Source: Burkholderiales bacterium
GTDB lineage: Bacteria > Pseudomonadota > Gammaproteobacteria > Burkholderiales > Burkholderiaceae_E
Assembly (NCBI GenBank): GCA_026399875.1
Contig: JAPLQF010000021.1
Span: forward strand, 124,001 to 188,000
Direction of reading: 5' to 3'
Length of the DNA: 64,000 nt
The translations under genes and the position numbers were made by a program. Shown piece after piece: positions 1,272 through 48,129 of this stretch (position 1 is its first letter; every line of letters starts with the position of its first letter). Below the pieces are notes generated by a model. It did no database searches, was not told where the DNA came from, and was given only the letters and a program-made list of their open reading frames with translations.

Positions 1272-2462
1272 TCATTGACGCGCATTACGCGGCTTATAGG
1301 TGGCTCTTTGGATCAAGAAGTCGCGATAGTCACCTGGGTCGCCATCAAGCCCTGACTCGGCGGCCTTGATGATGTTGTAGGTCTCTCGAGCGCTGACATA
1401 GTGCAATTTCCAGTCGACACCGTCGTTGTACCTGTTCTCAAGATATGAAAATGCTTCGGCCATAGGCTGACCCAAAAGCGTCGGCATATCCGGCTCCTGG
1501 GTCCCGTGGGTGTGAATCTTGACGACGACCCATTCAGGTCGACCTTCGACATGGATGCCCATATTGACCCACTGGTCTATGCGTTTTCGAGTGGGGGGAC
1601 TACTGGTTCTGATATCTGAGTTTTCGATTCGCGGAAGAAGCCCGAATTTCCTGTTGTGCCACATCAAACCAAGAGGGCCCTGAATGATCATCAAATCGTG
1701 CGCCTGAGGCTTGCCTACACGCACTCGACTGCCTGAGTTGTGGGACTTTGGCTTATGAGGATCATCGATTGCGTAATAAATCGAATTAATGGTCTCGGTC
1801 TGACACGGCGAAGGCGCTGCTGGCAAGGTGAAATCGGCATAACAGCCTTCTTCCTTCAGCACGGTGATCTCATTATTAACACCGCACCAACGTCCATCGG
1901 GTCTGCTATTGTCAAGCGACCAGTTCCCATGAATGAAACACCAGAGCGGTTGATCTGTATTTGTATCGACCGGAAGCGCACCGTGGTCGTCGACAAGTCG
2001 ACGAGTAAATGACCGCAGGGACTCGCGAAGACTGGCTTCGGTATCGTTGTCATGGTGAAGGTGAATTTCAATCTCGCCTAAACCATCCCGGCAAAGACCG
2101 ACGAGTGCATCAATATGCTCAGGTCGATACTCCTCACCGGGAAAAAAGAACGAATGAACCGGTGGCTTACCGTCGGCGTCGCGATGACCTGCGCAAAGCT
2201 TCGGATATTCCTGAACCCACTTGGCTACTCTGGCGTCAGCCGTCTGCGCCGAAGGGTTTCTCCATTGTGGCTCGTAATGATCCACGAAGCAGAAAAGCAG
2301 ATGCTTAGTCTTACCTGCAGGTGCAGCGGCTTTCCAGTCCTTTCGCAACCATGCGGACAGCCACACATGTATATGTTTGCGTTTGAACTCCTGTAATACA
2401 ACAATTGCAGCTAGTGCAAACACAACGATAAACGCTGTGAAAATAGTGCCGGGGACGGTCAA
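1272..2462 (-). CDS. Membrane-anchored protein, polysaccharide-deacetylase-like
   Basis: A 396-residue protein with one N-terminal membrane segment (about residues 7-24) followed by a basic stretch and a large domain on the far side. The segments CFVDHYEPQW, HSFFFPGEEYRPEHIDAL, EIEIHLHHDNDT and FIHGNWSLDN recall the NodB-like deacetylase fold: a metal-site-like HLHHD and a second histidine motif, but no canonical TFDDG. A role in trimming or deacetylating EPS in the periplasm is inference. The start is a TTG at 2462, chosen because GAAGGTG lies about 6 bases upstream and no earlier start exists. It follows the clear polysaccharide deacetylase gene (2508-3608) by 45 bases on the same strand, so the two probably form one operon and may work on the same polymer. 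The exact function is not known to me. Confidence 0.6.
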   Translation of the reverse strand: MTVPGTIFTAFIVVFALAAIVVLQEFKRKHIHVWLSAWLRKDWKAAAPAGKTKHLLFCFVDHYEPQWRNPSAQTADARVAKWVQEYPKLCAGHRDADGKPPVHSFFFPGEEYRPEHIDALVGLCRDGLGEIEIHLHHDNDTEASLRESLRSFTRRLVDDHGALPVDTNTDQPLWCFIHGNWSLDNSRPDGRWCGVNNEITVLKEEGCYADFTLPAAPSPCQTETINSIYYAIDDPHKPKSHNSGSRVRVGKPQAHDLMIIQGPLGLMWHNRKFGLLPRIENSDIRTSSPPTRKRIDQWVNMGIHVEGRPEWVVVKIHTHGTQEPDMPTLLGQPMAEAFSYLENRYNDGVDWKLHYVSARETYNIIKAAESGLDGDPGDYRDFLIQRATYKPRNARQ

Positions 2463-3608: not shown

Positions 3609-3873
3609 GCGATACCTGAGTCGGCTCTAGTGTTGTGGTGTCATTTAAAAAATCTGAAAGCGCTTGCAATGATTAAAGACGCGCCGCGAGCTTGCGTGCA
3701 TTTGTGGCAACCAACAGAGGATACTTGGCGTTCGGCTTGGAGGGTGTGACGGATGTCCGTGAGTTGAGCAACAGAGCTTTGCGATAATGCTCGCGAATGC
3801 AGTGTCGCAGCAGAACTATAGACGAGCGCAACGAAAACTCCTCCGTGATGAGGACTGATTGGAGAACATCCAG

Positions 3874-5034
3874 ATGATGCGAATTGCATTCGTGACCCCG
3901 ATGCTACCGATTCCGCACGACCTGACGCGGGGCCGCTTTATCCACGAAACAGCCAAGTCGCTCTCGAAGCTTTGCACCGTAAGAGTCTTCTTTCAGCAGT
4001 CGAGGTATCCAAAGCTGCCTGGGGTCGGGCCTCGAAGCTTTCTCGAAGGCCATGTCGGGTCGGACTACAGCATTGATGGACTTGATGTGGAGGCATTCAC
4101 CTATCCTGTTTTCCCGGTGATTTCCAGAGCCATCAATGGACACGTGAGCAGCATGGTGCTGACCCCTCGCGTCGCTGACTTCAAGCCGGACGTCGTGCTT
4201 GCCTATTGGATCTATCCGGACGGATTTGCAGCGTTGCGAGCTGCGCGCAAGCTCGGAGTGCCTTGTGTTGTGGGCGCGCTGGGCTCGGATATTCATGTGC
4301 GATCGGGGGTGAACGACCGGATGACCCGCCAGACGATTGCTGAAGTGGATGGACTGTTGACCGTCAGCGAGGCTATGCGTCGAACGGCGATCAGCGAGTT
4401 TGGTGCCAGGCCGGATCGCGTACACACCATCGTCAACGGCTTTAACACCGGCGTATTTTATCCTCGCGATCAAGTATCGATCCGGACGAAACTTGGCATA
4501 TCGCTCGACGAAAAAATGATCGTCTATGTCGGTCGCTTTGTAGAGGCTAAGGGTCTTCGCGAACTGATCCAGGCGTTTCAACAATTGGCCCAGAAAGACG
4601 ACAAGCTGAGTCTGGCTCTGATCGGCGATGGCGTGATGAAATCAAAGCTGCACGACCTGATCGACGCTGCGGGCCTGCGAGGCCGCGTGCGCATTCCCGG
4701 CGGGCAGCCGCCAGATCAGGTCGCAGAGTGGATGTGCGCTGCCAATGTTCTGACGCTTCCCAGTTGGTCCGAGGGCTATCCTAATGTTGTTGTTGAAGGG
4801 CTCGCGTGTGGCCGACCTGTGGTCGCAACCGATGTCGGCGGCACGCGCGAGATCCTGAACGAACGCAACGGAATACTGATAGAACCCAGAAAGAGCGATG
4901 TTTTGCAGCGAGCACTTGACCAAGCACTTAGAACTGACTGGGACTTGTCTGCGATTGCCGAGAGTATGCGCAGAACTTGGGACGATGTTGCCGTTGAAAC
5001 CTTGCGAATTTGCAAACAAGTAGCAGCTCGCTGA
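3874..5034 (+). CDS. Glycosyltransferase family 4
   Basis: A GT-B fold retaining glycosyltransferase of about 386 residues that transfers a nucleotide-activated sugar to a lipid-linked EPS intermediate at the inner face of the membrane. The N-terminal half starts with IAFVTPMLPIPHDLTRGRF. The C-terminal half has the nucleotide-binding IVYVGRFVEAKGLRELI and the E-x7-E motif in SWSEGYPNVVVEGLACGRP followed by VVATDVGGTREI. The start at ATG 3874 is preferred over an in-frame TTG at 3859 because GGAG lies 8 bases upstream of the ATG. It is plus-strand, unlike its neighbours, and downstream sequence is IS remnant, so it is probably monocistronic. Confidence 0.88.
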   Translation: MMRIAFVTPMLPIPHDLTRGRFIHETAKSLSKLCTVRVFFQQSRYPKLPGVGPRSFLEGHVGSDYSIDGLDVEAFTYPVFPVISRAINGHVSSMVLTPRVADFKPDVVLAYWIYPDGFAALRAARKLGVPCVVGALGSDIHVRSGVNDRMTRQTIAEVDGLLTVSEAMRRTAISEFGARPDRVHTIVNGFNTGVFYPRDQVSIRTKLGISLDEKMIVYVGRFVEAKGLRELIQAFQQLAQKDDKLSLALIGDGVMKSKLHDLIDAAGLRGRVRIPGGQPPDQVAEWMCAANVLTLPSWSEGYPNVVVEGLACGRPVVATDVGGTREILNERNGILIEPRKSDVLQRALDQALRTDWDLSAIAESMRRTWDDVAVETLRICKQVAAR

Positions 5035-6125: not shown

Positions 6126-6211
6126 AAACCCTTGCGCAATTTGCAGGAAGCAGATTCAACTATCTCAAGATCCTGCAGATTGCGCTACATGAGGTTATAG
6201 CGAGCCGCCGA

Positions 6212-8596
6212 TCACTTGGGCAGTGTTTTCCAAAGACGAAGTAGATCCCTTAACGCTTCGGGTTTGGTTTGTGGGATTGGCGCTCCCGCCTGATTCTTGT
6301 CGTTTTGACCATGGCATCCGGCGCAGGTACGGACCTCCCCCGGCTGGAAGGTGACCCAGACTCTCTCTCTGACGATTGGATTGCCATTGTCATCTGTTGT
6401 CTGCCACACGAGTGCCCGCTGTGCCGGCACAAATGCAGCAGTAGAGCCATCGGATGAAATTTTCACGCTTGATACTGGGCCGTTGACATTTGGAGTATTG
6501 ACTGTGCCGAGACTTTTGATGGGCTGAGCAATTGGACGGCGACCGGGAGAGTTATAACCACGTATCAGTGAAGCCTCAAAAATTTGAAAGCTGCTTATTG
6601 GATAGACTCTTCCTGCGATACTCGAAGACACAGTCTTCTTCCCACCGGTCACCTGAAGATTGAAGGGCTGTGACAGGTCGGCTTCGTCTCGTGAGGTTTG
6701 ATCTCGGGTAATGATCAACGCCAGATTATTCTTCTTCAACCAGTTCTGAAGCTCGGTTTGGGAAACCTGCTCTTCCTGAAAAATGGCCGACTCGGGATTT
6801 TCCAAAGCCGGGGCGCCGCGTGCGATTGGACGATTCTTTGCTACAACTTCAACGGCTTCGATTTCCCAAAGCGGGCCGTCAAATGACACTAGACTGTCAG
6901 GGTTATACCAAGACACGGACTTTTTGATTTCGCTGTTCAAGAAGCGGCCAGGAGCAGCTCCCGTGACCTCTCTAAGTCTCATCGATTTGATATTGGCTGG
7001 GACTGCCTCCTCCGTTGGTGTATGTGAGGCAATCAGGGTTCCGTTCGATAATGGCAGCGGGTTTCGAAAGCGCCCACCGGGTGTCTTGAAAGTGCTGAAG
7101 TCCTCAGCAGGGGTGATGGCTTGAAAGGCAAACTGCAGCGGGTTTGTAGTAGGCGCTCCGTTGAATCGTATTATTTGGTTGGATCCCAATTGCCCAAATT
7201 CGCGACCATAAATTGCGTAATAACGTCCCGGGTTTCTTGGATCCTCGCGAATTTGAAATATCCCCGCGCTACCAACAATAAGAAGCTTATTTAGTGTTAG
7301 TCCCGGTTTTGCGTTATCTGATAGTGCCGGGTCTGAAATGAAGCTTTTTGAAATGAATCCAGTGAACTCGTGACGACCTAAATGGTTCACCGTCACTTCA
7401 TCAGTGCCGTCTTCATTTATCTGCCATGGCGTAAAGAAATTGAAATTATGCCCTGGCACCGGTCCGTAAACTGAATTGCTTTGGTCTCGAGGCTCCGGAA
7501 AAACTTCATCTCCCATTGCTGAACTGGTCGAGTTTAAACTTTCATTGAGATATGTTTTCGTGCCATAAAACCTTGTGCCTGCTCTTTCAGCATCGGCCTG
7601 CTGGTCTCTCACCAAGTGATCCCATCTCGTAAAAATAACACGTCCAAAACTATCTACAGTTGGAGAAAAGGCGCCACTGGGAGAATGACTGAGAATTTTC
7701 AGTTCGGCGGTAATGGTATTCAAACTCCAGATCCCGGTGACGGTCGGGGTGCTTTCATACTCATCGAGCTGCGGATAAAGATGAGCCTCGCCACCGCGTG
7801 GTCGATCGCTTGTAAATATAATCCGATCGTCACTACCGTAAATGGGAGAAATATTGTTGTAAATGCTAGGCTGGCCTGGGATCTTGCGTATTGATGCTAC
7901 TTCGCCTTTTCCAATTCCTGTGACTTCATAAATTTGCCATCTATAGGAGTCAGCACGATCAAACTGTCTAGAAGGTCCGCCGACAATCATGCTGAAGACG
8001 ACTTTCTGGGCGTCCCAGTGCACGGCGGGCTCTCTAACTGCAATTGCATTAGGGCCCGATTGCAACCCTTCAACGCCATAGCCGGCTTCCTTGGTCAAGT
8101 TTCTTAATGAACCATCGGGATAACGAATCATCAGATCACCACCACGGGGCGCTCTGTCGACTCCTGAAAGATGACTGCCGAATGTTGATGCTCGAGCCGC
8201 GAAGTCACCCATTCCCGGAACTTGAGTCACGAACACAATTGGATTGGTCACGCTGGGTAAAGACGGTGATACAGGTACGTCGGTGGTCACGCCCGTGTTA
8301 AGTGCGGCGGTTATCGTTATCGGAGTGTTATTTGCAGCTCCTTGGGTATTCGTCGACACACTCGGGTCTGCCAAGCTACTTGGTGTAATCGAATCAGCTG
8401 CAACTGGGTTTGTAGATATGGATTTCGGTGCGCCAGATATTTCGGTAGCCGCTCCAATTATCGAAGCCGCTGTGCCAGAAATTGCGCTTGCAATATCAGA
8501 GCCAGAACGGGGTGCGTCGACTCCTCCGCACGCAGAAATCAACAAAAGGGATGTGATTGATAGCATTAAATCAACCTTAAATTCTTTGCGCATCAT
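6212..8596 (-). CDS. HzsA-like lipoprotein with C-terminal CxxCH
   Basis: A 794-residue secreted lipoprotein. The signal peptide ends in a lipobox (LLISACGG; Cys about residue 23). A roughly 90-residue linker rich in Ser, Thr, Ala and Ile follows. The main domain contains VTQVPGMGDF, GGDLMIRYPDGSLRNLT, AVREPAVHWDAQKVVFSM and IYGSDDRIIFTSDRPRGG, repeats typical of a TolB/WD40-like propeller. The C-terminus has the heme c motif TCAGCHG (Cys-x-x-Cys-His at 758-762). This combination resembles proteins annotated as HzsA-related (hydrazine synthase alpha-like), whose function outside anammox bacteria is unknown. ATGATG at 8596/8593 is preceded by AAGGGA. It is single, with IS remnant downstream. 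Binding of heme c is predicted from the motif only. Why it sits in an EPS region is unclear. Confidence 0.65.
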   Translation of the reverse strand: MMRKEFKVDLMLSITSLLLISACGGVDAPRSGSDIASAISGTAASIIGAATEISGAPKSISTNPVAADSITPSSLADPSVSTNTQGAANNTPITITAALNTGVTTDVPVSPSLPSVTNPIVFVTQVPGMGDFAARASTFGSHLSGVDRAPRGGDLMIRYPDGSLRNLTKEAGYGVEGLQSGPNAIAVREPAVHWDAQKVVFSMIVGGPSRQFDRADSYRWQIYEVTGIGKGEVASIRKIPGQPSIYNNISPIYGSDDRIIFTSDRPRGGEAHLYPQLDEYESTPTVTGIWSLNTITAELKILSHSPSGAFSPTVDSFGRVIFTRWDHLVRDQQADAERAGTRFYGTKTYLNESLNSTSSAMGDEVFPEPRDQSNSVYGPVPGHNFNFFTPWQINEDGTDEVTVNHLGRHEFTGFISKSFISDPALSDNAKPGLTLNKLLIVGSAGIFQIREDPRNPGRYYAIYGREFGQLGSNQIIRFNGAPTTNPLQFAFQAITPAEDFSTFKTPGGRFRNPLPLSNGTLIASHTPTEEAVPANIKSMRLREVTGAAPGRFLNSEIKKSVSWYNPDSLVSFDGPLWEIEAVEVVAKNRPIARGAPALENPESAIFQEEQVSQTELQNWLKKNNLALIITRDQTSRDEADLSQPFNLQVTGGKKTVSSSIAGRVYPISSFQIFEASLIRGYNSPGRRPIAQPIKSLGTVNTPNVNGPVSSVKISSDGSTAAFVPAQRALVWQTTDDNGNPIVRERVWVTFQPGEVRTCAGCHGQNDKNQAGAPIPQTKPEALRDLLRLWKTLPK

Positions 8597-10870: not shown

Positions 10871-10930
10871 GTCCAGCCTTTGTGTTGGATTGAATTCCTG
10901 GTTTGGTGTGTGAAAAAGGAGCTTTCGTAC

Positions 10931-12160
10931 ATGTTCGGTTTTGGTAGAGTGCAGCGCCACGCAGTGTCAAGTCTTTGTGGAAACTACTTGGCACGCAGCG
11001 ACTCAACTATCAAGCTACGCCGGTTATCTCTCTTGCGTATGGCTTGTGTCGCAGTGTTTCTTTTTGTTGGGTCGAGTTTAGAGGCCGCCGCTGAAAAGCC
11101 GAGTCATCCATCAGCGATCGGTCATTGCAGACTTTTTCCGGAAAGGACCATTTTCCACCAACGTATAGACGACACCACTGCGTTCCCCACTCATCCCCGA
11201 AGCGAGTCTTGGCTGAACCGAATTGGTCGCACGAAAGGACTTCGTCCAGATTGGGGCTGGAATGACAATCCTCAATTGAGCGAGTCATATTACGGTATTC
11301 CTTATAACGTTATCTCAGGCGGTCCTTCGGATTCCAACTGGGAGTCCGTGGATTTCTCAATTGTTGACCCCCGTCACGGCAACGGAGCGGGGGTGCCTTC
11401 CGAAAGTGACTGCGGTGTTCGAAAGGACGGCGCCCCTAACGGTTACTTTGTCAGTCGAGGTTGTGCCGGCAAGGATGCGGCTAGTCGTCTCTTTCCATTC
11501 CCGCATGACAGTGTAATTAAGCTTGAAGGCGGTGCCTGTTCGGATCAGACGCTTTGCGGCGATCGGCATCTTCTAGTTGTCGAGACAGGTGCCTGTCGAC
11601 TTTGGGAAGGCTTTTTTGTTTATCGAAACAAGGGGCGCTGGCAGATGTATTCAGCGAGCGCATGGGATTTGAACTCAAGTGATATGCGGCCAGACTCCTG
11701 GGGTTCGGCTGATGCCGCTGGCTTGCCAATACTTCCGTTCTTGGCAAGAGCAGACGAGGCCTCACGGGGCGAGGTCAGGCATCCGTTACGGGTGACCTTT
11801 CGCGATAGCGTGCTTGACCGCGAATACGTTTGGCCTGCGCGGCACGCAGCTGGCAGTCGGGTTGGTGGCGGCATACCATTCGGAGCAGTGCTGCGGCTTC
11901 GAGGCGACTTTCAGCCTCCGGCAAATTGGACTGCTCAAGCTAAAGCGCTGGTCGGGGCCATGAAAGCGTACGGCTTGTATGTGGCCGATATTGGGTCTGA
12001 TTTCTTTGTGACCGGCGAGCCAAGCGCTGAGTGGCGCCCTGAGACGACTAGTCAGTTGCGCAAGCTAACTCTCGATTTATTTGAGTTTGTCGACATGGGG
12101 AGCATTACTCGCCATGAACATTTTCGGTCTAACTCCTTCAGATCGTCATGGGGGCCCTGA
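10931..12160 (+). CDS. Conserved secreted protein of unknown function
   Basis: A 409-residue exported protein. The start at ATG 10931 is chosen because AAAGGAG lies 9 bases upstream; a later ATG at 11039 would remove the basic part of the signal. A long N-terminal extension precedes a Sec-type signal (KLRRLSLLRM, then CVAVFLFVGSSLEAAA). The mature part contains CRLFPERTIFHQRID, GIPYNVISGG, GDRHLLVVETGACRLWEGF, the strongly conserved-looking MRPDSWGSADAAGLPILPF, EVRHPLRVTF and YVWPARHAA, then YGLYVADIGSDFFVTGEP. I recall this motif set from bacterial secreted proteins of unknown function. A surface or periplasmic role linked to EPS is inference from location. An IS3 element lies 60 bp downstream. 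Confidence 0.65.
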   Translation: MFGFGRVQRHAVSSLCGNYLARSDSTIKLRRLSLLRMACVAVFLFVGSSLEAAAEKPSHPSAIGHCRLFPERTIFHQRIDDTTAFPTHPRSESWLNRIGRTKGLRPDWGWNDNPQLSESYYGIPYNVISGGPSDSNWESVDFSIVDPRHGNGAGVPSESDCGVRKDGAPNGYFVSRGCAGKDAASRLFPFPHDSVIKLEGGACSDQTLCGDRHLLVVETGACRLWEGFFVYRNKGRWQMYSASAWDLNSSDMRPDSWGSADAAGLPILPFLARADEASRGEVRHPLRVTFRDSVLDREYVWPARHAAGSRVGGGIPFGAVLRLRGDFQPPANWTAQAKALVGAMKAYGLYVADIGSDFFVTGEPSAEWRPETTSQLRKLTLDLFEFVDMGSITRHEHFRSNSFRSSWGP

Positions 12161-34138: not shown

Positions 34139-35227
34139 TTATTTTCCGGCTGTTGATGCAGTTGAGTAGTCTTGATTTCCTCGCAAGATTCTCAAGACTT
34201 TTCGGATCAGGTTGAACATCATGCCGTTTGAAGATTCTAGTAAGGCCACTCGTTCCTCAAGCTTGGCGACCTGCTCTTGAAGCGATCGTTCGGCTGCCGT
34301 TGGCAGTCGAGATATCTGCGCGCCGCCAGTTACGCCAGCCGTATTGCTTACTAGTTGAGGTCCGTTTGTTTCGACGCGCGCTTCGACTGAGGGTGTATCA
34401 GCTTTATCCGTTACACCGAGCTCAAGCTCCATTTCGGCTGACACCGTATCGACATCGGCCGCACCGATCAGTCGCTTGTCTCCCAGATACGCTGCAAGCA
34501 ACAGCCGGTCGCACAGCGTGTTGATGCGCCGGGGCACACCGCCGCTGCCGGCATGGATCTGCGCAAACGCCGCGGTATCGAAATGCGGGTTATCGCTCCA
34601 GCCTACATGCCGCAGTCGGTGCTCGATATAGGCCCGTGTCTCTTCGACATCGAGCGGTCCTAGGTGATAGGACGCAATCACCCGCTGCTTGAGCTGGCTC
34701 ATTTCGGGGCGCTGCAGGATGCCGCGAAACTCGGGTTGCCCAACTAAAAAGCTTTGTACAAGCGAGCGGGTGCCAACTTGGAAGTTCGACAGCATGCGCA
34801 GCTCTTCAACCGCGCCCTGCGAGAGGTTCTGCGCTTCATCGACGATCAGCAGGGCACGACGGCCCTGGTCGTTGAGCATCTCGAAATGCTGCTGCAAACG
34901 GGTGAGCAGCGTCGACTTATCTTCCCCGCTAGAGGGCAGACCGAAGGCCGCCGCAACCAGTCGCAGCAAATCGTCGGAGTCGACCTGCGTGCTGACAATC
35001 TGCACCGGCACGATCGCATCGTTCTGGATACGCCGCAGCAGACCTCGAAGCAGCGTGGTCTTGCCTGCGCCCACATCGCCGGTGATGACGATGAATCCCT
35101 CGCCCTGATGCAGACCATATTCAAGATAGGCCAGTGCGCGCTTATGGCCTCGGCTGCCGAAGAAAAAATCGGGGTCTGGGTTGAGCTGAAAGGGCTTGGC
35201 GCTCAGACCGAAATGACTCTCGTACAT
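34139..35227 (-). CDS. XrtA-associated ATPase (ExeA/GspA-like AAA)
   Basis: A 362-residue AAA ATPase. It opens MYESHFGLSAKPFQLNPDPD, has a Walker A at 50-57 (GDVGAGKT), a Walker B LLIVDEAQNLS near 127-136, and sensor-like GGVPRRINTLCDRLLLAAYL. The C-terminal tail has a coiled coil (LQEQVAKLEERVALLESSNG). This matches the ATPase family always found with exosortase A EPS clusters (TIGR03015). It probably energises or organises polysaccharide assembly or export at the inner membrane; the exact role is not established. It sits 29 bp after the beta-barrel gene in the core operon. Confidence 0.92.
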   Translation of the reverse strand: MYESHFGLSAKPFQLNPDPDFFFGSRGHKRALAYLEYGLHQGEGFIVITGDVGAGKTTLLRGLLRRIQNDAIVPVQIVSTQVDSDDLLRLVAAAFGLPSSGEDKSTLLTRLQQHFEMLNDQGRRALLIVDEAQNLSQGAVEELRMLSNFQVGTRSLVQSFLVGQPEFRGILQRPEMSQLKQRVIASYHLGPLDVEETRAYIEHRLRHVGWSDNPHFDTAAFAQIHAGSGGVPRRINTLCDRLLLAAYLGDKRLIGAADVDTVSAEMELELGVTDKADTPSVEARVETNGPQLVSNTAGVTGGAQISRLPTAAERSLQEQVAKLEERVALLESSNGMMFNLIRKVLRILRGNQDYSTASTAGK

Positions 35228-35256
35228 GGCTGGCCTGCGGGTTTAATGGGTGATGG

Positions 35257-36999
35257 TCAGAAACGGAAATCGACATAAGTGAACACTGCGGCTTCGTCGT
35301 ACTGCACGGTGGTGCCGGTGCCGCTCTGATGCTGCAGCCGAGCGCCAATCGACCAGACCGCGCGTGGCGTGAAGCGGTAGTCCCAACTCGCCAGCAGTTG
35401 ATTCAAGCGGGCAAAGGAATTGATCGAAGTCGAATTCGAGTCGGTCTGGCGATAACCGGCATTCATTGAGCTCACCGAATCGAGCCGATAGCTCACGCCG
35501 AGCGAGCCACCGTACTGGTCCAGATCGTTGAAGCTGCCGCCGATAAAGGGCACCGCGGTGGTCTGCTTGTTCATGAAGACTGTGGCCAGAACGCCGAGGC
35601 GTGTGCCGACATAACCGATGCTGGCGGTCAGGTTGTCGACAAAGAGCACCGGGCTGTTCAGAAAGTTGGCGCCATAGCCGGGGTTGGTGCCGAAAAGGCC
35701 GGAGCTCACGCTGTTGCCGGCAGTGTTGCCAAAGAGCAGATTGCGATTGGCCAGACCTTGCGCTACCGGATTGGTAAAGAGTGAACTGCCGGGCGTGGTG
35801 CCGGTTGCACCAGTCTGCGCGCCCATCATCGCGCCTGAGCTTGCGCCATAGGCGCCGTAGCCGCCATAGCCACCGTAACCTGCACCGGCATAAGGATTGT
35901 TGCCGTTAGTCACGCCGTTGTAGTAATTCAGGCCGAAGGTCCAGTTGGACGCCACATGCCGGGCCTGCGCATTGCCGGTATTGCCAAAATAGCGGTTGGC
36001 CCAGTAGGCCCTGAACGAGGTTCGATCATCAGGTACCCATTCGACCGATGCCGCCGGGCCCCAGCCGCTGTTCTGGCCCTGATCGTTAAAAAGCACATCG
36101 CTTTGCGCATAGCCGGCGCCGGCACCGATGCGGAAAGTTCGCGTGGGCAATAGCCAGGCCAGGAGGTCGGCATCGCCACCGTGATAGCCGTAGCCGTTGT
36201 CGTAATTGATGTTGTAGTAGTTGGCCTTGGCTGATAGACCGACGTACCGTCGCGAGAAGTCGCTGCGCACATCGCCCATCAGGGACTGACTCACACTGCT
36301 CGAGATGTTGTTGCCCGGGTCGACATAACGGGCGACATATCGGGTGTTCCAGCGTCCATCACCGTCGATGCGACCAAACAGATTCGGTGCGAGTGTCAAA
36401 TCGCTGTATTGACTGACGTTAAAGGTCTGAGCGCCAGGCGTATAAGACGAAGCCAGAAAAGGGTTGGTGTTTGTCGCAAAAAGATTGGCCGCCGCCAGTA
36501 CATGGAAGTGGTCTTCATTGACCTTCCAGTTGGCTGCTGCACCAAGGTTCTGATACGTGTTGTTCTTGTTGTTCGTGCCGCCGTCATTGCTGCGCGCCAC
36601 GAAATTCAGGTTGTAGAACGCCTGCGCAACCAGTTTTTGCGAGGTGTAGTTGGCGTTCAGGTAGGGGCTTACCTGAAGCATCATGCCCCGAACCTGCTGA
36701 CCGCTTGCCTGAAGATTCAGGTTGTTGCTGTAGAGCAGTGAGGTGCGCATGCCGAGATAGATGGTATTCGGTTGCGCGGTGGCGTTCAGATTGCCAACGC
36801 CGATCGGGGTGATGCCGGCCGGTGCGCCGATCGATCCTGGCACAGGCACAATCGACACCGCACCGGGAGACGATGATCCCGGAAGAAGTGGTGTGAGTTG
36901 AGCCGAAGCAATGACGGGTGATAGCAGCAAGGTCGCGAGACCGGCGCGTCTGCCTCTGCGAATCGTGGTCGAATCAAACGGACGATCAGCTCGCGGCAT
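35257..36999 (-). CDS. XrtA-associated outer-membrane beta-barrel protein
   Basis: About 580 residues with a signal peptide (RRGRRAGLATLLLSPVIASA then QLTP). The body is rich in alternating aromatic strands and Asn/Gly/Tyr turns (SLLYSNNLNLQASGQQ, LNANYTSQKLVAQAFYNLNF), includes a glycine/tyrosine-rich loop (YAGAGYGGYGGYGAYGASSG), and ends in an aromatic residue (FTYVDFRF), all typical of an outer-membrane barrel. It matches the uncharacterised PEP-CTERM-system family TIGR03016, likely a secretion pore for EPS. ATG 36999 (AGGG 8-9 bases upstream) or ATG 37005 are the likely starts; both overlap the tyrosine kinase gene's 3' end. Confidence 0.88.
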   Translation of the reverse strand: MPRADRPFDSTTIRRGRRAGLATLLLSPVIASAQLTPLLPGSSSPGAVSIVPVPGSIGAPAGITPIGVGNLNATAQPNTIYLGMRTSLLYSNNLNLQASGQQVRGMMLQVSPYLNANYTSQKLVAQAFYNLNFVARSNDGGTNNKNNTYQNLGAAANWKVNEDHFHVLAAANLFATNTNPFLASSYTPGAQTFNVSQYSDLTLAPNLFGRIDGDGRWNTRYVARYVDPGNNISSSVSQSLMGDVRSDFSRRYVGLSAKANYYNINYDNGYGYHGGDADLLAWLLPTRTFRIGAGAGYAQSDVLFNDQGQNSGWGPAASVEWVPDDRTSFRAYWANRYFGNTGNAQARHVASNWTFGLNYYNGVTNGNNPYAGAGYGGYGGYGAYGASSGAMMGAQTGATGTTPGSSLFTNPVAQGLANRNLLFGNTAGNSVSSGLFGTNPGYGANFLNSPVLFVDNLTASIGYVGTRLGVLATVFMNKQTTAVPFIGGSFNDLDQYGGSLGVSYRLDSVSSMNAGYRQTDSNSTSINSFARLNQLLASWDYRFTPRAVWSIGARLQHQSGTGTTVQYDEAAVFTYVDFRF

Positions 37000-38041
37000 A
37001 TCCATAACCCTGATAGCCCACCGCACGAGACTCGCGCGATTTATTGAGGACCATGCCGACCACCTCGGGCGAACCGATGCTGGCCAACGCGTCTTTCACC
37101 GCTTCGCGGGAAGTGTTCCCAGCCTCGACCACCATCACGATCTGGCCCATATAGGCCGCGAGCACGCGGGCTTCGGTGGTGATCAGCAGTGGTGGGGTAT
37201 CGAAGATGATGATCCGATCGTCATAACGATCGGACAGATGATTGAGCAGCAGGCCCATGGATTCACTCGCGAGGAATTCGGTGGCCTGCTCATGATGGCG
37301 GCCGGCCGTCAGGATCGAGAGTTTATCGACGTTGGTCGGTTGCACAAGCTCGCCAATGTCGAGTGTGGTGTCGGTCAGCCAGTCCATCAGCCCACGCGAC
37401 GACTCGAAGCCGAGCTCGCGCGGCAGCGACGGGCGCGCCACATCGGCATCAACCAGCAGCACATGCGTGTCGCGCTCGGCTGCAATGCTCATCGCCAGAT
37501 TGATCGCGCAAAAGCTCTTGCCTTCGCCTGCAAAGGCGCTGGTGACCATCACTCGCCGACCGTTCTTGACCGCCGGTGCCGAGCCCGATCCGAAAGCATT
37601 CACCAGCAGGGGGCGCTTGATCATGCGGAACTGCTGGCCGATCTCGGACGGCGCGCCATCGGGTGTGACGAAGCCGCGCGCGCGCAGTGCTTCGATATGG
37701 ATGCGGGACTGCTTGCGGGCGATGCCAGGGGCTGCAGTGGAGCGCAAACCAACTCTGGCTTCTGATGGCGCGTCAGCACGCGGTGTGGAGGTCGGGGCTA
37801 GCGCGGGTGCAGCAGAAGGTGCTGCAGCAGGTGACTGAGACGGCGTCGAAGCAGGCGCTGTAACCGGCGGTGGTGCAAGCCGCGCACCAGCAGCCACGAC
37901 TGGTGCGCTCGAATCAGATGGCTTAGCTTCGGCTGCCTTGGCGGCCTGTGCTTTGGCCAGCGCCATCGCCCGCTCGGGCAGCGAGCCGGCATCGGCCGGT
38001 GCCGCTGCAAGTTTGTCGACAGCTCTTTCGATGAGACTCAT
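36986..38041 (-). CDS. XrtA-associated tyrosine autokinase (BY-kinase)
   Basis: A 351-residue cytoplasmic bacterial tyrosine kinase. A long Ala/Pro-rich linker (about 45-100) precedes the kinase domain with Walker A TSAFAGEGKSFCAINLAMSI (AGEGKS 171-176), Walker A' VLLVDADVARPSLP, and Walker B IIIFDTPPLL. The C-terminus AVGYQGYGYAAS is the tyrosine cluster that is autophosphorylated. It matches TIGR03018. It works with the Wzz-like protein encoded just upstream (16 bp gap) to regulate chain length by phosphorylation cycles. The start ATG 38041 has AAGGA 7 bases upstream; the longer open frame is not needed. Confidence 0.93.
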   Translation of the reverse strand: MSLIERAVDKLAAAPADAGSLPERAMALAKAQAAKAAEAKPSDSSAPVVAAGARLAPPPVTAPASTPSQSPAAAPSAAPALAPTSTPRADAPSEARVGLRSTAAPGIARKQSRIHIEALRARGFVTPDGAPSEIGQQFRMIKRPLLVNAFGSGSAPAVKNGRRVMVTSAFAGEGKSFCAINLAMSIAAERDTHVLLVDADVARPSLPRELGFESSRGLMDWLTDTTLDIGELVQPTNVDKLSILTAGRHHEQATEFLASESMGLLLNHLSDRYDDRIIIFDTPPLLITTEARVLAAYMGQIVMVVEAGNTSREAVKDALASIGSPEVVGMVLNKSRESRAVGYQGYGYAAS

Positions 38042-38057
38042 GTCAGTTTCCTTGGTG

Positions 38058-39620
38058 TCATCGGGCAAGCAGCTTCATGGTCTGCCATCCAATCAGTGCG
38101 CCAAACAGCAGCAGATAGAGCAGTGTAGTGGTCGAGAAGGTCAGCACCGCTTTGCGATTGCGAGCGCGGCTGAGCGGGTCGATCAGCAGCGAGACCGAAC
38201 CCAGCAGCGGAATGCCGGTGTAAGCGCGCAGGCTGCGGCCGTCGAAGAATGTGGGCTTCAACTGATTAAGGAGGAAGGCAACGCCCAAGCCGGCTGCAAT
38301 TGATGCGAGCAGAGCACCTGTGAGAAAGACAGGTCGATTAGGAAAAACCGGCTGAGGCGCAACACGCGGCGGGTCGATCACGCGAAACTCGCCAATCCCG
38401 GATTTTGATTCCATGTCACCTGACATTGCTGCCGATTCGCGCCTGGTAACGAGTGAGTCGTAGTTCTTCTTGTTGATCTCGTAGTCGCGGTTGAGTTGAA
38501 CATACTCGGCTTCGATCTTCGGGATGGTCTGAGCTGCGGCCTTTGACTGGGCAAGACGGTTTTCTGCATCCGCCAACTTCGCACGCGCCGAGCCGATCTT
38601 CGATTCGGTCTCTGCCATCGAGATCTTGATGTCCTGATAGACCTTGTTCGGAATCACCGTGGTGTTTCCGCTGCGAGGTGCTACGCCGGATGCGGCTGCC
38701 TTGATCTCGGCGGCCCGCGCGATCTCGAGGTCTTTGAGCACCCGACGCTGGTTTATCACGTCGGGATGTTCTTCTGTGAAACGCAGCGTCAGTTCATCGA
38801 GTTGCTTGCGAACGAACTCGAGACGCTTTTCGGTATCGGTCTGCCCGACCGCAATCAGATTACCCGACGCATCCGATGAGGTGAACGAAGGCTTTTCTTC
38901 AGCTAATTGACGACGGAGTGCCTCGCGGCTGTTCTCGAGCTGCCGCAGTTCCAGGCGAGCAAGATCGAGGTCTTTTTGCGCGTTGCCGGCCATGGTCACG
39001 TAGTCCTCGGCCATGTTGGGCATGACCTGAAGATTGCGGATCTTGAAGTCTTTCAGCGCACTTTCTGCATCGACTAATCGCTTTTGATACATCGCGATCT
39101 GCTCGTCGATGAAGCGTCGGGCCTGGTCGGAGTCACGGCGTTTGTCGCCCAAGTTCGACTCGACGAAAATTGAAAGCAGAGACTGAACCACCTTGCGTGC
39201 TGCCTCGGGGTTTTCATCGCGGTAGGCAACGCTGTAGAGATTGTTGCCACCCGATGGCCTGAAAACGATCTTCTTGATCAGTTCATCAACCATCTTCTCG
39301 CGTTCCTGCGGGCTCTTTGTTTGAAGATCGAGGTCGGACATCCTCACGACCCGCTCGACATTAGGGCGGCTGATGAGGGTGCGCGCCATCATCTGTACTT
39401 GCTGGTCAACATTCGGCTGCACCGCCAGCCCTTCCATCAGAGGCTTGAGGATCGACTGTGTGTCCACAAAAACACGTGCCGTGGCCTCGTATCTGTTGGG
39501 GATGAGCATCACAATCGCGGCACCGAGGGTCCCGAGAACAAGCGTCGTGGCCATCGCGGGCCAGCGCTTGAGCCAGAAAGCCGGCAGCAGTTCGCGGAGC
39601 TTTAGAAAGAGTTCGTTCAT
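38058..39620 (-). CDS. XrtA-associated chain-length determinant (Wzz-like)
   Basis: A 520-residue polysaccharide co-polymerase. One N-terminal membrane segment (about 20-40, TTLVLGTLGAAIVMLI), RYEATARVFVDTQSILKPLM right after it, a long periplasmic coiled coil (for example ARLELRQLENSREALRRQLA), the PxxP-type motif DPPRVAPQPVFPNRP, then a membrane segment (about 425-445) and another near the C-terminus. It fits TIGR03007. It sets EPS chain length together with the tyrosine kinase. The ATG (39620) lies next to the TGA of the export gene (TGACATG). Confidence 0.93.
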   Translation of the reverse strand: MNELFLKLRELLPAFWLKRWPAMATTLVLGTLGAAIVMLIPNRYEATARVFVDTQSILKPLMEGLAVQPNVDQQVQMMARTLISRPNVERVVRMSDLDLQTKSPQEREKMVDELIKKIVFRPSGGNNLYSVAYRDENPEAARKVVQSLLSIFVESNLGDKRRDSDQARRFIDEQIAMYQKRLVDAESALKDFKIRNLQVMPNMAEDYVTMAGNAQKDLDLARLELRQLENSREALRRQLAEEKPSFTSSDASGNLIAVGQTDTEKRLEFVRKQLDELTLRFTEEHPDVINQRRVLKDLEIARAAEIKAAASGVAPRSGNTTVIPNKVYQDIKISMAETESKIGSARAKLADAENRLAQSKAAAQTIPKIEAEYVQLNRDYEINKKNYDSLVTRRESAAMSGDMESKSGIGEFRVIDPPRVAPQPVFPNRPVFLTGALLASIAAGLGVAFLLNQLKPTFFDGRSLRAYTGIPLLGSVSLLIDPLSRARNRKAVLTFSTTTLLYLLLFGALIGWQTMKLLAR

Positions 39621-39621
39621 G

Positions 39622-40239
39622 TCAGAAGTAGCTCTCGGGAATCAGGATGACATCACCGGGCAAGACCTCGACATTGGCCGAGACATCACCGCCTTTGAGC
39701 AGGTCACGCAATCGCACGTTGTACTGCTTGTTGTTTTCTGTCTGGCGAATCAGAGTGGCGCGATTGCCGGCGGCGTTTTCGGTGATGCCGCCGACCAGGA
39801 TCATCACATCGAGCAGGGTCATGCCCTGTTTGTAGTTGATCGCAGCCGGCTTGGCAGCCTGGCCGACCACGCGAACCTGCTCGCTGGCATTGCCCACAAA
39901 ACTCGCCACCGACACGGTGACGCTCGGTTCGCGAACATACTTGGTCAGGCGGCCTTCAATTTCACGCGCCAGATCGGCCGGCGTCTTGCCCAGCGCAACA
40001 ATATCTTCGACCAGCGGCGTGCTGAACTTGCCGTCGGGACGCACCGGCACCGTGGTCGACAGTTCGGGATGGCGCCAGACATTGATATTGAGCGAATCGC
40101 CCGGCCCGATCTGATAGGTGTAGGTGGGTACCGCGGCTTTGGCCGGTGCCGGCGGCAGGCTGGACGTGGCGCAGCCTGCGAGTCCGATGGCTGCGATCAG
40201 GCAGACCAGTGAGCGGGTGAGAAAACCGGAGCGCTTCAT
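39622..40239 (-). CDS. Polysaccharide export lipoprotein (Wza-like)
   Basis: A 205-residue lipoprotein: signal peptide with lipobox IGLAGCATSS (Cys about 23), then the poly_export domain YTYQIGPGDSLNINVWRHPE and TVPVRPDGKFSTPLVEDIVA, GKTPADLAREIEGRLTKYVR, followed by an SLBB domain (VRVVGQAAKPAAINYKQGMT, LLDVMILVGGITENAAGNRA). It matches the exosortase-associated export protein TIGR03027. It is the periplasmic/outer-membrane channel part of EPS export. It starts the run epsE-wzz-kinase-barrel-ATPase after a 245-bp gap that contains a perfect palindrome, so it may have its own promoter. Confidence 0.93.
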   Translation of the reverse strand: MKRSGFLTRSLVCLIAAIGLAGCATSSLPPAPAKAAVPTYTYQIGPGDSLNINVWRHPELSTTVPVRPDGKFSTPLVEDIVALGKTPADLAREIEGRLTKYVREPSVTVSVASFVGNASEQVRVVGQAAKPAAINYKQGMTLLDVMILVGGITENAAGNRATLIRQTENNKQYNVRLRDLLKGGDVSANVEVLPGDVILIPESYF

Positions 40240-40389
40240 CGAATGATTCCTTATGCGGTCGCCAAAGAGGCAGCGGGTCGTTCAGAAACTTTGAGAAAAC
40301 ATCAAACAGCCGGGGAAGCTGCCGCCAAAAACCACCGGTCGACCTTGCACCTTAGCCATTCCCTTTGCAAGACTCCTGAGCCCCTGAAT

Positions 40390-40411
40390 GATCGGTCGAT
40401 TCCGACCGATC
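40390..40411. promoter_or_regulatory. 22-bp perfect palindrome between prsT and export gene
   Basis: GATCGGTCG, ATTC, CGACCGATC: nine-base perfect arms around a four-base loop. It lies 150 bp upstream of the export gene start and 74 bp past the prsT stop, in the only sizeable gap of the core operon (40240-40484). No T-run follows on either strand, so a classical terminator is unlikely; an operator, an RNA hairpin or an attenuator are possible. Confidence 0.6.
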
Positions 40412-40484
40412 GGCGAGGGACATTGTCACGATGACCATGTTGCAGAAATGACCTATTGTGTGGCTTACCTCGGTGCTTCAGGCC

Positions 40485-43298
40485 TTAAAGCTTGGCTGCC
40501 AGCTCGCCGGCTGCCTTGGCGTTTGCCGACTCCGGAAAATCTTTTATCAGAGCCTCGGCCGCCGACTTCGCCGCAGCCTTGTCACCCGACTTTGCCAGGG
40601 CCTGCACATAGTGCAGCCGGATGTCGGCCGCCTTGGGTGCCAGCGAGGTCGCCTGCTTGAGCAGCTCGACTGCGCGTTGCGTATCGCCCTTGTCCAGCAG
40701 CACCAGCGCCAGTGTGTCGATCACCGGAGCGGCCTGCGGCGCTTTGGCGAAGGCATCTTCCGCATATTTGACCGCTCTTGGGTCTTTCAACTGGTAATAG
40801 CACCAGGCCAGGTTGTTGATCGCCGGCACGAAGTTGGGGCTGGTGGCCAGCACCGACTCATAAAGCTCAGCCGCCGCCTTCCATTGCTGCGCGGCCAGCA
40901 CCTGATCACCGGCATACATCTTCAGCTGGTTATCGTTGGGCGCGGCTTTCAGGCCCTCGCGCAGCGCTGCATCGGCTTCAGCCTTGCGCCCGCCTTCGCT
41001 GAGCGAATTGTGCAGCTTCATTACCAGAACTGGTGTGCGCTCGACGGCGATCGCTTTGCGATAGGCGCCGGCAGCATCGAGCCATTTCTTGTCGGATGCC
41101 AGCAGATCGCCTTCGAGCGAAAGACCGGCCGGGCTGTTGGGCAGCTCCTTTTGCAGGGTCTTGGCGATCTTCTCGGCGTCTTCCTTGCGGCCTTCTTTGA
41201 GCAGCATCGCGGCCATGCCGAACTGCGGCTCGGTCGCCTTGCGATCGAGTTCAGCGGCGGCCCGAAAACTCGCCAGCGCGCCGCTGGTATCGCCCAGCCC
41301 GGCTTTGATCTCGCCAAGCCTCATCTGCACCGCGACCGATTTCGGATACATGCGCACGATCTTCTCGAAGGTCTCGATCGCCTGCTGCTTGTCGTCGGCG
41401 CGCAGATATAGCGTGCCCAGCGCGTCGAGCAACTGGGCGTTCTCGGGCTGCTGCGCCAGGGCCTGCTGCACCAGCGGAATCGCGTCTTTCGGCTTGCCTA
41501 TCTGGACCTGCTGCTGCGCAAGTGCCAACAGCGGCTCGATGGCGGCGGGGTCAGCAGCCTGCGCCTTTTTGAGCAGCGCGGTCACATCCTCTGCCTTGGC
41601 GCCGGTGCGCGCCATCAATTGCGACAACGCAACCATCGCCTGCACATTCTTCGGGTCGCGCTCGACCAGCGCTTCGAAGCGCTTCCTGGCGGCATCCGGC
41701 TTCTTGTCGTTCAGATCGAGTTGCGCGAGATTGGCCACCGCCGGGAAAAACTTGGGATCGATTTTTTCGGCGGCCTCGAAGCTTGCGCGGGCGCCGGCCA
41801 CATCACCCTTTGCCAGCAGCACCGTGCCACGCAGATTGGCCGCCAGCGGCTTGTCGGGCTGCTTCTTCTCAAGCCCCTCGATCGCCTTGAGCGCCTCATC
41901 GTATTGCTTGGCCCGCAGCCGCTCGGTGATCAGGGCGAGGTCTGCCTGGGTCGAGCTGGTATCCAGGCTGACCGCGGTCTGAAGTTCGCTGAAACCCGAT
42001 TCGATCTTGCCTGACGAGATCTCGGCCAGGCCCAGCACCGTGCGCTTGGTGGCATCCTTCGGGTCGAGCGCGGTGGCACGGGCCAGATAGTCGGTGGCGG
42101 CCTTCAGGTCGTTGCGACGCATCGACGCTTCGCCCGCGATGCCCAGCAGCACCGGGTCTTCAATGCCCTTGTCGATTGGCACCTTGGCGACCTGCACTGC
42201 ACGCTCGAAGTCGCCGCGCCGCAGATAGACCGCCGACAGCAGACGCGCACCCTGCAGCGAATTGGGCGCTCGCTGTGCGACCTGCCTGGCATAACTCTCG
42301 GCCTGCTCCATCGAGTTTTGCGATAGCGCAATATTGGCGGCAAGCGCCAATGCCGGAAGGAACTCGGGATTGACCTTGAGCACCTGCCCAATGGCCGCCG
42401 AGGCGGAGTCGAGCTTGTTCTGACGAAAGTCGAGCAGGGCCTTGAAATACTGCGCAATTGGCAGATTGGGCGCGATTTTCGTGAGCTCGGCGAGCTGCGA
42501 TTCGGCGGCGGTGAACTCCTTCTGATCGGTGAGCAGCGAGATCAGCTTGATGCGTGGCGTGATGCTTCGCGGATCAGCCTCGATTGCTTTCTCGAGCGTC
42601 GTGCGTCCGCCGGCGATGTCGCCTTGGGCAATCTGCAGGTCGGCCTTGAGCAGCAGGCCGTCAGGCAAAGCCGGTGCTTTGGCAAGCACTGCATCGATGG
42701 CAGTGCTGGCGCCGGCCAGGTCACCATTGCCGGCCTGCAGCTGGATCAGCGCGATCTGCGGCGGAAAGTAGTCGGCCTTCAACTGCACCGCCTCTTTGAA
42801 TGCTGCCGTGGCGCGCTTGTTGTCGCCGTCGCCGGCATAAGCCCGGCCCGACCAGTAAGCCACCGCCGCCCTGCCTTCGGGCTGCGTGACCGGATACTTC
42901 GCCGCGGCCTCGAGAGCCTGCTTGCCTTCTTCCATCGAGATCAGGGCGTCCATCAGGCCGGGCAGGGCGCGTTCGGGCGCGATCTTGAGTTCAAGCGCCC
43001 GGCGAAACTCTTTCTCGGCCGAGCGCGGATCGCGGTTGGACAGATACAGATCGGCCAGCAGGGCGCGGGCTTCGGCATTGTCAGGATCTTTTTGCAGCGC
43101 GTTTTTCAGGTGAATCTCGGCCGCCTTGAGGTCCTTTTGCTGGATCGATGTCTTGGCCTTGTCGAGCAGCGCTGATGGGCTGTCCTGGCAGCCGACCAGC
43201 AGGGTGGTGGCAACCGCTGCCGACAGCAGGGCTGCCGTCAAACGGCTCAGTCTGGCAGGCGTCTTGCGCGCAGCGGATCGTGTGATCGACAGGGTCAT
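40485..43298 (-). CDS. prsT: PrsT: TPR-repeat lipoprotein of PEP-CTERM EPS systems
   Basis: A 937-residue lipoprotein. Signal: RLTAALLSAAVATTLLVGCQ, lipobox LVGC (Cys about 37). The rest is one long array of tetratricopeptide repeats (for example AEARALLADLYLSNRDPRSA, KKPDAARKRFEALVERDPKN, YRKAIAVERTPVLVMKLHNS), about two dozen units. It matches the PrsT family (TIGR02917). It is likely a periplasmic/outer-membrane scaffold for EPS assembly or protein sorting. The start at ATG 43298 is set by GGAG nine bases upstream; the longer frame overlaps the preceding gene's flank without reason. It follows prsR by 40 bp. Confidence 0.93.
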   Translation of the reverse strand: MTLSITRSAARKTPARLSRLTAALLSAAVATTLLVGCQDSPSALLDKAKTSIQQKDLKAAEIHLKNALQKDPDNAEARALLADLYLSNRDPRSAEKEFRRALELKIAPERALPGLMDALISMEEGKQALEAAAKYPVTQPEGRAAVAYWSGRAYAGDGDNKRATAAFKEAVQLKADYFPPQIALIQLQAGNGDLAGASTAIDAVLAKAPALPDGLLLKADLQIAQGDIAGGRTTLEKAIEADPRSITPRIKLISLLTDQKEFTAAESQLAELTKIAPNLPIAQYFKALLDFRQNKLDSASAAIGQVLKVNPEFLPALALAANIALSQNSMEQAESYARQVAQRAPNSLQGARLLSAVYLRRGDFERAVQVAKVPIDKGIEDPVLLGIAGEASMRRNDLKAATDYLARATALDPKDATKRTVLGLAEISSGKIESGFSELQTAVSLDTSSTQADLALITERLRAKQYDEALKAIEGLEKKQPDKPLAANLRGTVLLAKGDVAGARASFEAAEKIDPKFFPAVANLAQLDLNDKKPDAARKRFEALVERDPKNVQAMVALSQLMARTGAKAEDVTALLKKAQAADPAAIEPLLALAQQQVQIGKPKDAIPLVQQALAQQPENAQLLDALGTLYLRADDKQQAIETFEKIVRMYPKSVAVQMRLGEIKAGLGDTSGALASFRAAAELDRKATEPQFGMAAMLLKEGRKEDAEKIAKTLQKELPNSPAGLSLEGDLLASDKKWLDAAGAYRKAIAVERTPVLVMKLHNSLSEGGRKAEADAALREGLKAAPNDNQLKMYAGDQVLAAQQWKAAAELYESVLATSPNFVPAINNLAWCYYQLKDPRAVKYAEDAFAKAPQAAPVIDTLALVLLDKGDTQRAVELLKQATSLAPKAADIRLHYVQALAKSGDKAAAKSAAEALIKDFPESANAKAAGELAAKL

Positions 43299-43338
43299 GG
43301 TGGATGTCTCCGGGTGTGGCAGCGGTGCAGTCAGTGGT

Positions 43339-46759: not shown

Positions 46760-48129
46760 CGTGCGCCCTTGCCGAGCAACACCACCTGGATCGTCTCGAC
46801 CAGGATCATCAGGTCGAGAAACAGCGAGTGGTTCTTGACATAGTAGAGGTCGTACTGGAGCTTGGCCAGACCGTCTTCCAGCGAGGCGCCGTAGGGGTAT
46901 CGCACTTGCGCCCAGCCGGTGACCCCGGGCTTGACCGAGTGACGAACATCATAAAAAGGAATCTTTTCGACCAGCTGATCGACGAAAAACTGCCGCTCGG
47001 GGCGCGGACCCACGAAACTCATATGGCCGGCGAGCACCGTCCAGAGTTGGGGCAATTCGTCGATGCGGGTGCGGCGCAGGAAGTTGCCGACACGGGTAAT
47101 GCGCGGGTCCTTGGCCACTGCCCAGACTGCCTGACCGCCTTTTTCGGCGTCGGTGCGCATGGTGCGAAGCTTGAGGATCCTGAAATGCCGCCCGCCGAAA
47201 CCGACCCGCTCCTGCGAGTAGAAGATCGGAAATCCGCTGTCGATTACCACCGCGATCATCGCCAGCAGCAGAATCGGCAGCGCCAGCAGCAGCAGACTGG
47301 CCGAGGCGATCAGATCGAATAGGCGCTTGACCAGGTCGCGGGTCATGCCCTGGTCGAAACCGTTGCCAAAGATCATCCAGCTTGCCCGCATGCTGTCGAT
47401 GCGCAGCACGCCTTCTTCTCGCTCATAAAAGGACTGCAGATCCATGACCTTGATGCCATGCAGCCGTGCGTCGAGCAACTGACGCAGCGGCAGGACACCA
47501 CCCCGGCGCTCGCGCACCGCGATCACGATCTCGGACACCTTGAGCTCTTCGGCGGTGCGGCGCAGCAGGTCGTGATTGAGCGGACGCTCGACCCCATCGG
47601 CATTGCGCTCGGCCATGACCGGATACAGGCCGGCATATTGAACCGACTGGCGCCCGGCGCCCTTGTGCAGGCAGCGGATGACTGCCTCGGCTTCGGCACC
47701 GTTACCCAGCACCAGCACACGCCGCTTGGGCAGACCGATGTCGGTCAGCCAGAAAAAGCTCAGCCGCAGCAGCAGGACGCTGCCGAGCGCCAGCAGCGAG
47801 CTCCAGGCCATCACGCCACGACCGATGTAAGTCTCGGGAAAGAGATAGAAGACAAGGCTGATCAGCAGCAGCGACATGCCGTAGGCGATCAGGATGCGGT
47901 TGAAGGTGTTGCGAAAGCTCTCGGCCTGAGTCTGATACAGCCCGAGCGCCGACATCGACATCAGCATGATGAAGGTGAAAACGCCGGCTTCCATCATCGG
48001 GATGGACGCAAGCGAACCTGAAGCTCGCACCTGAAAGCCGAGAATCACCGACTGGAAGAGGACAGCGCCTTCCAGGAGGGTCAGCAACAGCAGCCGGACC
48101 GAGAGATAGTGGTTGAATACGCGGATCAT
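46756..48129 (-). CDS. XrtA-associated undecaprenyl-phosphate sugar transferase
   Basis: A 457-residue polyisoprenyl-phosphate hexose-1-phosphate transferase (PHPT) that starts EPS repeat synthesis. The N-terminus has about four membrane segments, then a CoA-binding-like Rossmann part ([20 protein letters not shown]). A membrane helix near 270-290 precedes the catalytic domain: [76 protein letters not shown]. It fits TIGR03013/TIGR03025. It is the first gene of the core operon; a candidate sigma54 promoter lies about 125 bases upstream. Its TGA overlaps the prsK CTG. Confidence 0.93.

Follow-up and report, generated by a model that had tools for sequence, protein, structure and literature searches.

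What does a relative of the alpha subunit of hydrazine synthase (HzsA) do in an exopolysaccharide (EPS) locus of a Burkholderiales bacterium? The question is raised by the gene at 6212-8596 of the 64,000-nucleotide stretch of DNA that was analysed as a whole (the window). A preliminary description of this stretch had proposed that the gene encodes an HzsA-like lipoprotein with a C-terminal heme c motif, which either points to redox chemistry in the EPS matrix or is simply a passenger. Our literature search found no paper on this protein family, nor on any HzsA-like protein encoded in an EPS locus.

The gene is a single intact reading frame from ATG to stop, its limits are exactly those first described, and AAGGGA is found in the sequence 8 bases 5' of the start (Table 1). 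The lipobox, I20-S21-A22-C23, was confirmed. In E. coli, lipoproteins without Asp at position +2 are sorted to the outer membrane, and since Cys23 is followed by Gly, outer-membrane sorting would be expected by this rule; a lipobox alone is not proof that a protein faces outward. The Ser/Thr linker of the preliminary description is indeed of low complexity and rich in Ser and Thr, but the composition count for residues 24-118 (29 of 95 Ser/Thr, 38 of 95 Gly/Ala/Pro/Asn) identifies it as Ser/Thr/Ala-rich and not purely Ser/Thr. The AlphaFold2 model of the protein, built from a 40-row alignment (pLDDT 82.1, pTM 0.82), has pLDDT below 50 for residues 1-111 and mostly low confidence in the linker, and the C-terminal domain (588-794) modelled alone reached a pLDDT of 92.5. 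The propeller-like repeats remained sub-threshold by sequence in a Pfam search (PD40, E 0.051), although they are clear in the model and in its structural matches. The terminal TCAGCHG contains CAGCH at 758-762 and is followed by 32 residues to the C-terminus; C23, C758 and C761 are the only cysteines of the protein. By reading, the protein ends in a short helix that belongs to the heme domain and has neither a PEP motif nor a hydrophobic tail, so that, unlike the substrates of XrtA/PEP-CTERM systems, the protein has no PEP-CTERM sorting signal. Promoter and terminator scans returned fewer sites than shuffled sequences and were not used.

Table 1. Features of the HzsA-like gene, its protein and the surrounding EPS locus (window coordinates)
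Feature	Position	Strand	Evidence or remark
HzsA-like heme c lipoprotein gene, 794 aa	6212..8596	(-)	ORF, PF18582, model, fold
Signal peptide and lipobox ISAC; Gly after Cys23	8528..8596	(-)	sequence
Low-complexity Ser/Thr/Ala/Pro linker, residues 24-116	8249..8527	(-)	composition, model
TolB-type propeller, residues 117-587; family-invariant Y253, H304, W325-D326, H405	6836..8248	(-)	alignment, structural matches
HZS-alpha middle domain, residues 588-794	6215..6835	(-)	domain model, 5c2v_A match
Heme c motif CAGCH, residues 758-762	6311..6325	(-)	sequence; invariant in 58/58 rows
unk396, 396 aa, family without name	1272..2462	(-)	no Pfam/NCBIfam match
Polysaccharide deacetylase PF01522	2508..3608	(-)	
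GT4 glycosyltransferase	3859..5034	(+)	flanks HzsA-like gene; in Aquabacterium L095/L099 one gene away
Acyltransferase PF01757	9701..10870	(+)	
EPS gene of unknown family	10880..12160	(+)	second gene away here; next gene in L095/L099
XrtA-type EPS core	34139..48129	(-)	TIGR family matches

The likeness to HzsA lies in domain and fold, and two of the checks proposed in the preliminary description, an HMM search and a structure prediction, came out in its favour. The protein matches PF18582 (HZS_alpha) with E 9.9e-13 and 48.9 bits (cut-off 26.6), as the one HZS_alpha match of its genome, and PF18582 was also matched by all 40 family members scanned (E 0.01 or better). The best solved structure for the model is HzsA of Kuenenia stuttgartiensis (5c2v_A; Z 33.2, 453 aligned residues, rmsd 3.1, 18% identity by VIA-align), in an alignment spanning residues 117-794 of the model and 56-660 of the chain, and the top Foldseek match is 5c2v_D (E 1.7e-20). 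TolB, which shares the propeller but has no heme domain, follows in the structural alignment (Z 24.7, 257 aligned, rmsd 2.8, over residues 112-587). With the middle domain alone, 5c2v_A again came first (Z 11.5, 144 aligned, rmsd 3.9; next row Z 6.1). By sequence only, the link is weak: identity in the structural alignments to HzsA is 13-18%, and the family profile reaches 5c2v at E 0.62. From these fold alignments we conclude that the propeller and the CXXCH-bearing middle domain have been kept, including a DGST stretch found in both proteins, and that the heme alpha-II domain is missing. A further difference from HzsA is the lipid anchor predicted from the lipobox.

The domain name and the fold would suit a true hydrazine synthase subunit, or another enzyme of N-N bond chemistry, but we give this reading practically no probability. 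The equivalog model NF052339 (hydrazine_alpha) scored 22.6 bits against a cut-off of 800. In HzsA, the ligand of heme alpha-I is Tyr591, four residues past the His of CXXCH (PMC12607021); a Tyr is found at this position in none of the 58 rows of our family alignment. Since the only cysteines are the lipid anchor C23 and the motif residues C758 and C761, a zinc site of the Cys303 type is impossible, a residue that is missing in some anammox bacteria too (PMC12758564). The protein has a single CXXCH and thus no second heme c (alpha-II), and no further CXXCH was present in a picked set of non-overlapping window ORFs of at least 90 aa. Judged by heme motifs, neither HzsB/HzsC nor a fused beta-gamma gene was found among the picked window ORFs, and no multiheme gene recurs at 63 loci of the family; multiheme ORFs adjoin 5 of these 63 loci and are unlike one another. 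Hydrazine synthase identity was therefore rejected on residues, model score and missing partners. HZS-alpha homologues outside anammox bacteria have been assigned to clades I-IV (Hagglund et al. 2025, PMC12758564), and the excerpts of this work and of PMC10732223 used here give them no function. According to the same excerpts of PMC12758564, clades I-III are without Tyr591 and Ser590, Cys303 occurs in no homologue, and the Syntrophobacter homologue is predicted to have a canonical heme c pocket. The family described here shows the same losses as clades I-III; however, the homologues selected in those excerpts adjoin a fused beta-gamma gene, whereas our family has no such recurring neighbour and is EPS-linked.

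The heme c site remains a candidate one, but a strongly conserved one. Invariant in 58 of 58 aligned family rows are C758, C761 and H762 and, in the propeller, Y253, H304 and H405; beyond the motif, the heme domain (36 rows) has no conserved His or Met. CcmE, the Ccm component searched, is present in the genome and ResB gave no match, so heme attachment is possible. Export signal, CXXCH and maturation gene are thus all in place, as expected of a c-type cytochrome, and the heme c motif of the preliminary description has gained weight.

The EPS setting was likewise recognised correctly. Besides the TIGR03015 ATPase, the TIGR03018 kinase and the TIGR03007 chain-length and TIGR03027 export proteins, the XrtA-type core encodes PrsT (TIGR02917), a response regulator (TIGR02915), a TIGR03013 glycosyltransferase and a TIGR03016 match below cut-off; XrtA itself lies just left of the window (contig 120568-122151). 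The HzsA-like gene is separated by 1.2 kb from the glycosyltransferase gene and by 1.1 kb from the acyltransferase gene, and two small ORFs in the gap toward the glycosyltransferase had no Pfam match. Along the window, the glycan-specific genes (1-36000) have a GC of about 0.46-0.54, which climbs to 0.63-0.65 in the conserved EPS core and beyond (40000-64000). A transposase ORF with an integrase core (rve) was seen at 25869-26498, in the low-GC glycan part. Two RelA/SpoT-type genes (49227-51572 and 55499-57919), 32% identical, lie within 9 kb.

The family is wide but patchy. Full-length matches were found in 3 of 101 relatives, own genome included, with a partial match in a fourth genome, and in 2 of 12 genomes of the same genus. 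At class level, 52 of 369 genomes matched, four of them (own genome included) near full length and 48 in short pieces. In an initial scan of genomes with this one protein as the query, none of 42 candidate stretches was confirmed. Among 84,980 species genomes, 64 loci with relatives were detected, in Burkholderiales, Lysobacteraceae, Myxococcota, Bacteroidota, Ignavibacteriota and Chloroflexota, with single members elsewhere; carriers include the isolates Sphaerotilus natans, Leptothrix discophora and Pseudoxanthomonas. Because these 64 loci in other genomes encode relatives and CXXCH is kept in all 58 rows, the observation is not a chance one. The 58-row alignment was made without L056 and L081, which share their contigs with L013 and L014, and without L110, L111, L114, L115 and L116, where the gene reads short or broken; L063 and L118 were missed by the ORF step, and L084 and L094 are cut at one end. 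The tree of the family mixes lineages. The window copy and the copy of the same-genus genome G005 do not group, support around the window copy being modest, and no well-supported small set holds the window copy. Many other members have a lipobox as well. Por secretion tails in 4 of 40 members and FG-GAP, dockerin or Ig-like modules in one or two members each (40 scanned) point outside the cell. Four other HZS_alpha proteins, each with two CXXCH and encoded by ORFs of 994-1819 aa, were noted in one genome of the same order (G074, loci L017-L020).

Does the gene keep company with EPS genes in other genomes, as the preliminary description supposed? We searched the loci with 24 EPS protein queries from the own contig and the relative G021 and counted a locus as EPS when it had at least 4 matches; the controls were 40 stretches of 20 kb, taken at set spacing on long contigs of seven genomes, five of them carriers. 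Five of the 64 loci and none of the 40 controls reached this number (p 0.083, not significant), 59 loci stayed below it, and one control stretch (L145) had a single match. Counting alone, therefore, does not show EPS placement. The five loci are L081 on the G021 contig, L095 and L099 of Aquabacterium, L117 of Luteimonas marina and L074; as G021 itself contributed four of the 24 queries, part of the 16 matches of L081 are self-matches. L117 was identified as EPS by core families and L074 by similarity. On the tree, the EPS label requires at least four changes, which places the gene in EPS loci at four separate places. G021, like the window, has the gene in an XrtA/PEP-CTERM EPS locus. In G021 it is preceded by XrtA and by a PEP-CTERM-like ORF that matches floc_PepA only weakly (26.7 bits, cut-off 80). 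In L117, it stands between TIGR03027/03007/03018/03016 genes (03018 and 03016 below cut-off) and a TIGR03013 gene, on the same strand. This L117 core (5231-16821; TIGR03027, 03007 and 03013 over cut-off) is of XrtA type in a genome without an exosortase match, and L074 is alike by similarity. The gene of L095 and L099 is flanked by relatives of the genes at 10880-12160 and 3859-5034, in the same relative orientation as in the window; one more gene stands on the glycosyltransferase side, and the acyltransferase gene is located elsewhere. An additional copy outside the tree, the second of Methylibium sp. NZG (G575, the genome of L066), was found near unk396 and directly downstream of a polysaccharide deacetylase gene on the same strand. 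No operon partner recurred across 63 neighbourhoods beyond groups within the Lysobacteraceae and the EPS loci, and a conserved operon partner was rejected on this ground. The gene at 10880-12160 likewise found no support as a co-occurring partner, with no match in G005 and a partial match on another contig in G021.

Co-occurrence at genome level was followed for exosortase and for unk396 in 53 of the 68 known carriers, own genome (G000) included, comprising 21 Burkholderiales, 16 Lysobacteraceae, 5 Myxococcota and 11 others, grouped by organism name and tree position (L057, L058, L060, L069 and L074 carry only broader organism names). Left out were L092, L094, L098, L101, L104, L107, L108, L110, L111, L114, L115 and L116, and the near-full-length matches G265, G499 and G563 of the class search. 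Non-carriers among 200 relatives were defined by the PF18582 search; G074 and G075, with other HZS_alpha proteins, are counted among them. Exosortase was detected in 28 of the 53 carriers; the share was high in Burkholderiales (20 of 21 carriers against 36 of 98 non-carrier relatives), but none of the 16 Lysobacteraceae carriers had a match. Exosortase was consequently rejected as the key partner. The suggested co-occurrence of orthologues with XrtA loci is thus not supported as a link to XrtA as such, and unlike XrtA/PEP-CTERM loci, some carriers are without any exosortase match.

The best genomic correlate of the HzsA-like gene, better than XrtA, is unk396. It is present in 9 of 200 relatives, namely in 3 of 3 family carriers and 6 of 197 non-carriers (Fisher p 6e-5; 1.4e-3 without the own genome), and in 28 of the 53 carriers: 14 of 21 Burkholderiales, 11 of 16 Lysobacteraceae, 3 of 5 Myxococcota and none of the 11 others. 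The difference between 14 of 21 Burkholderiales carriers and 6 of 197 non-carrier relatives (p 9e-13) holds for groups not matched by family, and the main weakness of the analysis is that the comparison groups are unmatched for Sphaerotilaceae and Lysobacteraceae. In none of nine Bacteroidota, Ignavibacteriota, Chloroflexota, Planctomycetota and Verrucomicrobiota carriers searched was unk396 found; the link may therefore not extend beyond Pseudomonadota and some Myxococcota. The two genes are known to be close in 5 of the 28 carriers (G000, G021, G601, G604 and G575), and among another 27 unk396 stretches, of which 20 belong to carriers, only that of G575 contained the HzsA-like gene; in G005, the two genes are on different contigs. 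Relatives of glycosyltransferase, Wzy-like, deacetylase and flippase genes surround unk396 in 11-19 of 32 sequences, the window included. The protein is 54-66% identical to seven aligned relatives, with the invariant motifs D-H, HLHH, HGNW and HTHG, had no Pfam or NCBIfam match and gave only chance-level results in a PDB sequence search; judged by eye, it is perhaps a divergent metal-dependent deacetylase. In a Lysobacterales unk396 locus (L191, 3932-7894), two genes stand in tandem; the first is lipoprotein-like and matches heparinase II/III weakly, below threshold. For the EPS link proposed at the outset, the EPS loci at four places of the tree and the co-occurrence with unk396 speak in favour and the 59 loci below the criterion against.

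Taken together, we give an even chance to the reading that the protein is exported and lipid-anchored, carries a single heme c, shares the propeller and middle-domain architecture of HzsA, and serves the EPS matrix and not nitrogen metabolism. The gene is found with EPS genes more often than expected and its product has none of the known catalytic features of hydrazine synthase, so redox work at the slime layer is more probable than nitrogen chemistry. In such a scheme, the Ccm system would attach heme c, and His762, as argued from conservation, would be the proximal ligand, because no Tyr stands at the Tyr591 position and the heme domain has no other conserved His or Met. The distal side might be open or served by the propeller. 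With this arrangement, the protein could be a heme redox enzyme exposed at the cell surface, peroxidase- or oxidase-like, acting on the matrix glycan or on small oxidants. A role as a long-range electron wire was rejected, as several hemes would be needed and the protein has one motif. An electron-transfer cytochrome for extracellular respiration in the matrix, of the kind known from the EPS-anchored cytochromes of Geobacter, is accordingly very improbable in our view: a heme c candidate in an EPS locus and the several Leptothrix and Sphaerotilus among the carriers would fit, but the picked window ORFs offer no other CXXCH and the few multiheme neighbours elsewhere do not resemble one another.

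The suggestion that the gene is simply a passenger has lost ground without falling away. As a mobile accessory gene that settles in variable islands of low GC, EPS loci among them, it would have no functional tie to the polysaccharide. This is unlikely, though a serious contender, given the patchy occurrence among relatives and within the genus, the G005 copy that does not group with the window copy, the GC of 0.50 where most of the flanking core has about 0.60-0.66, the transposase ORF in the same island, the missing recurrent partner and the many loci that are not EPS loci by our test. Against it stand unk396, which co-occurs even when the two genes are apart, the many invariant polar residues, and Aquabacterium, where at 43% protein identity the gene still stands between the 10880-type and glycosyltransferase genes (L095/L099). 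It is rather doubtful, too, that the protein is a structural or binding lipoprotein whose propeller and beta-rich domain retain the polysaccharide at the outer membrane, with the heme as stabiliser or sensor and not as catalyst. The TolB-type propeller and the secretion tails and surface-type modules of some relatives agree with it, as does a weak resemblance of the middle domain to CBM20-type sugar-binding modules (Z about 4-5), but the latter is at noise level, and the invariance of C758, C761, H762 and many polar residues goes beyond the needs of a scaffold.

A family that combines one heme motif and a lipid anchor with a statistical tie to a defined EPS gene has a testable role, in lineages with named isolates, and HZS_alpha matches should be used with caution as markers of anammox. 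It is tempting to go further and speculate, improbable as we consider it, that the HzsA fold is older and more widespread, serving in a surface heme enzyme by which a particular EPS is oxidatively modified or protected, with the deacetylase-like unk396 as its pathway partner and both kept together across Burkholderiales, Lysobacteraceae and Myxococcota. If this were true, the alpha subunit of hydrazine synthase would be a specialised offshoot of matrix heme proteins.
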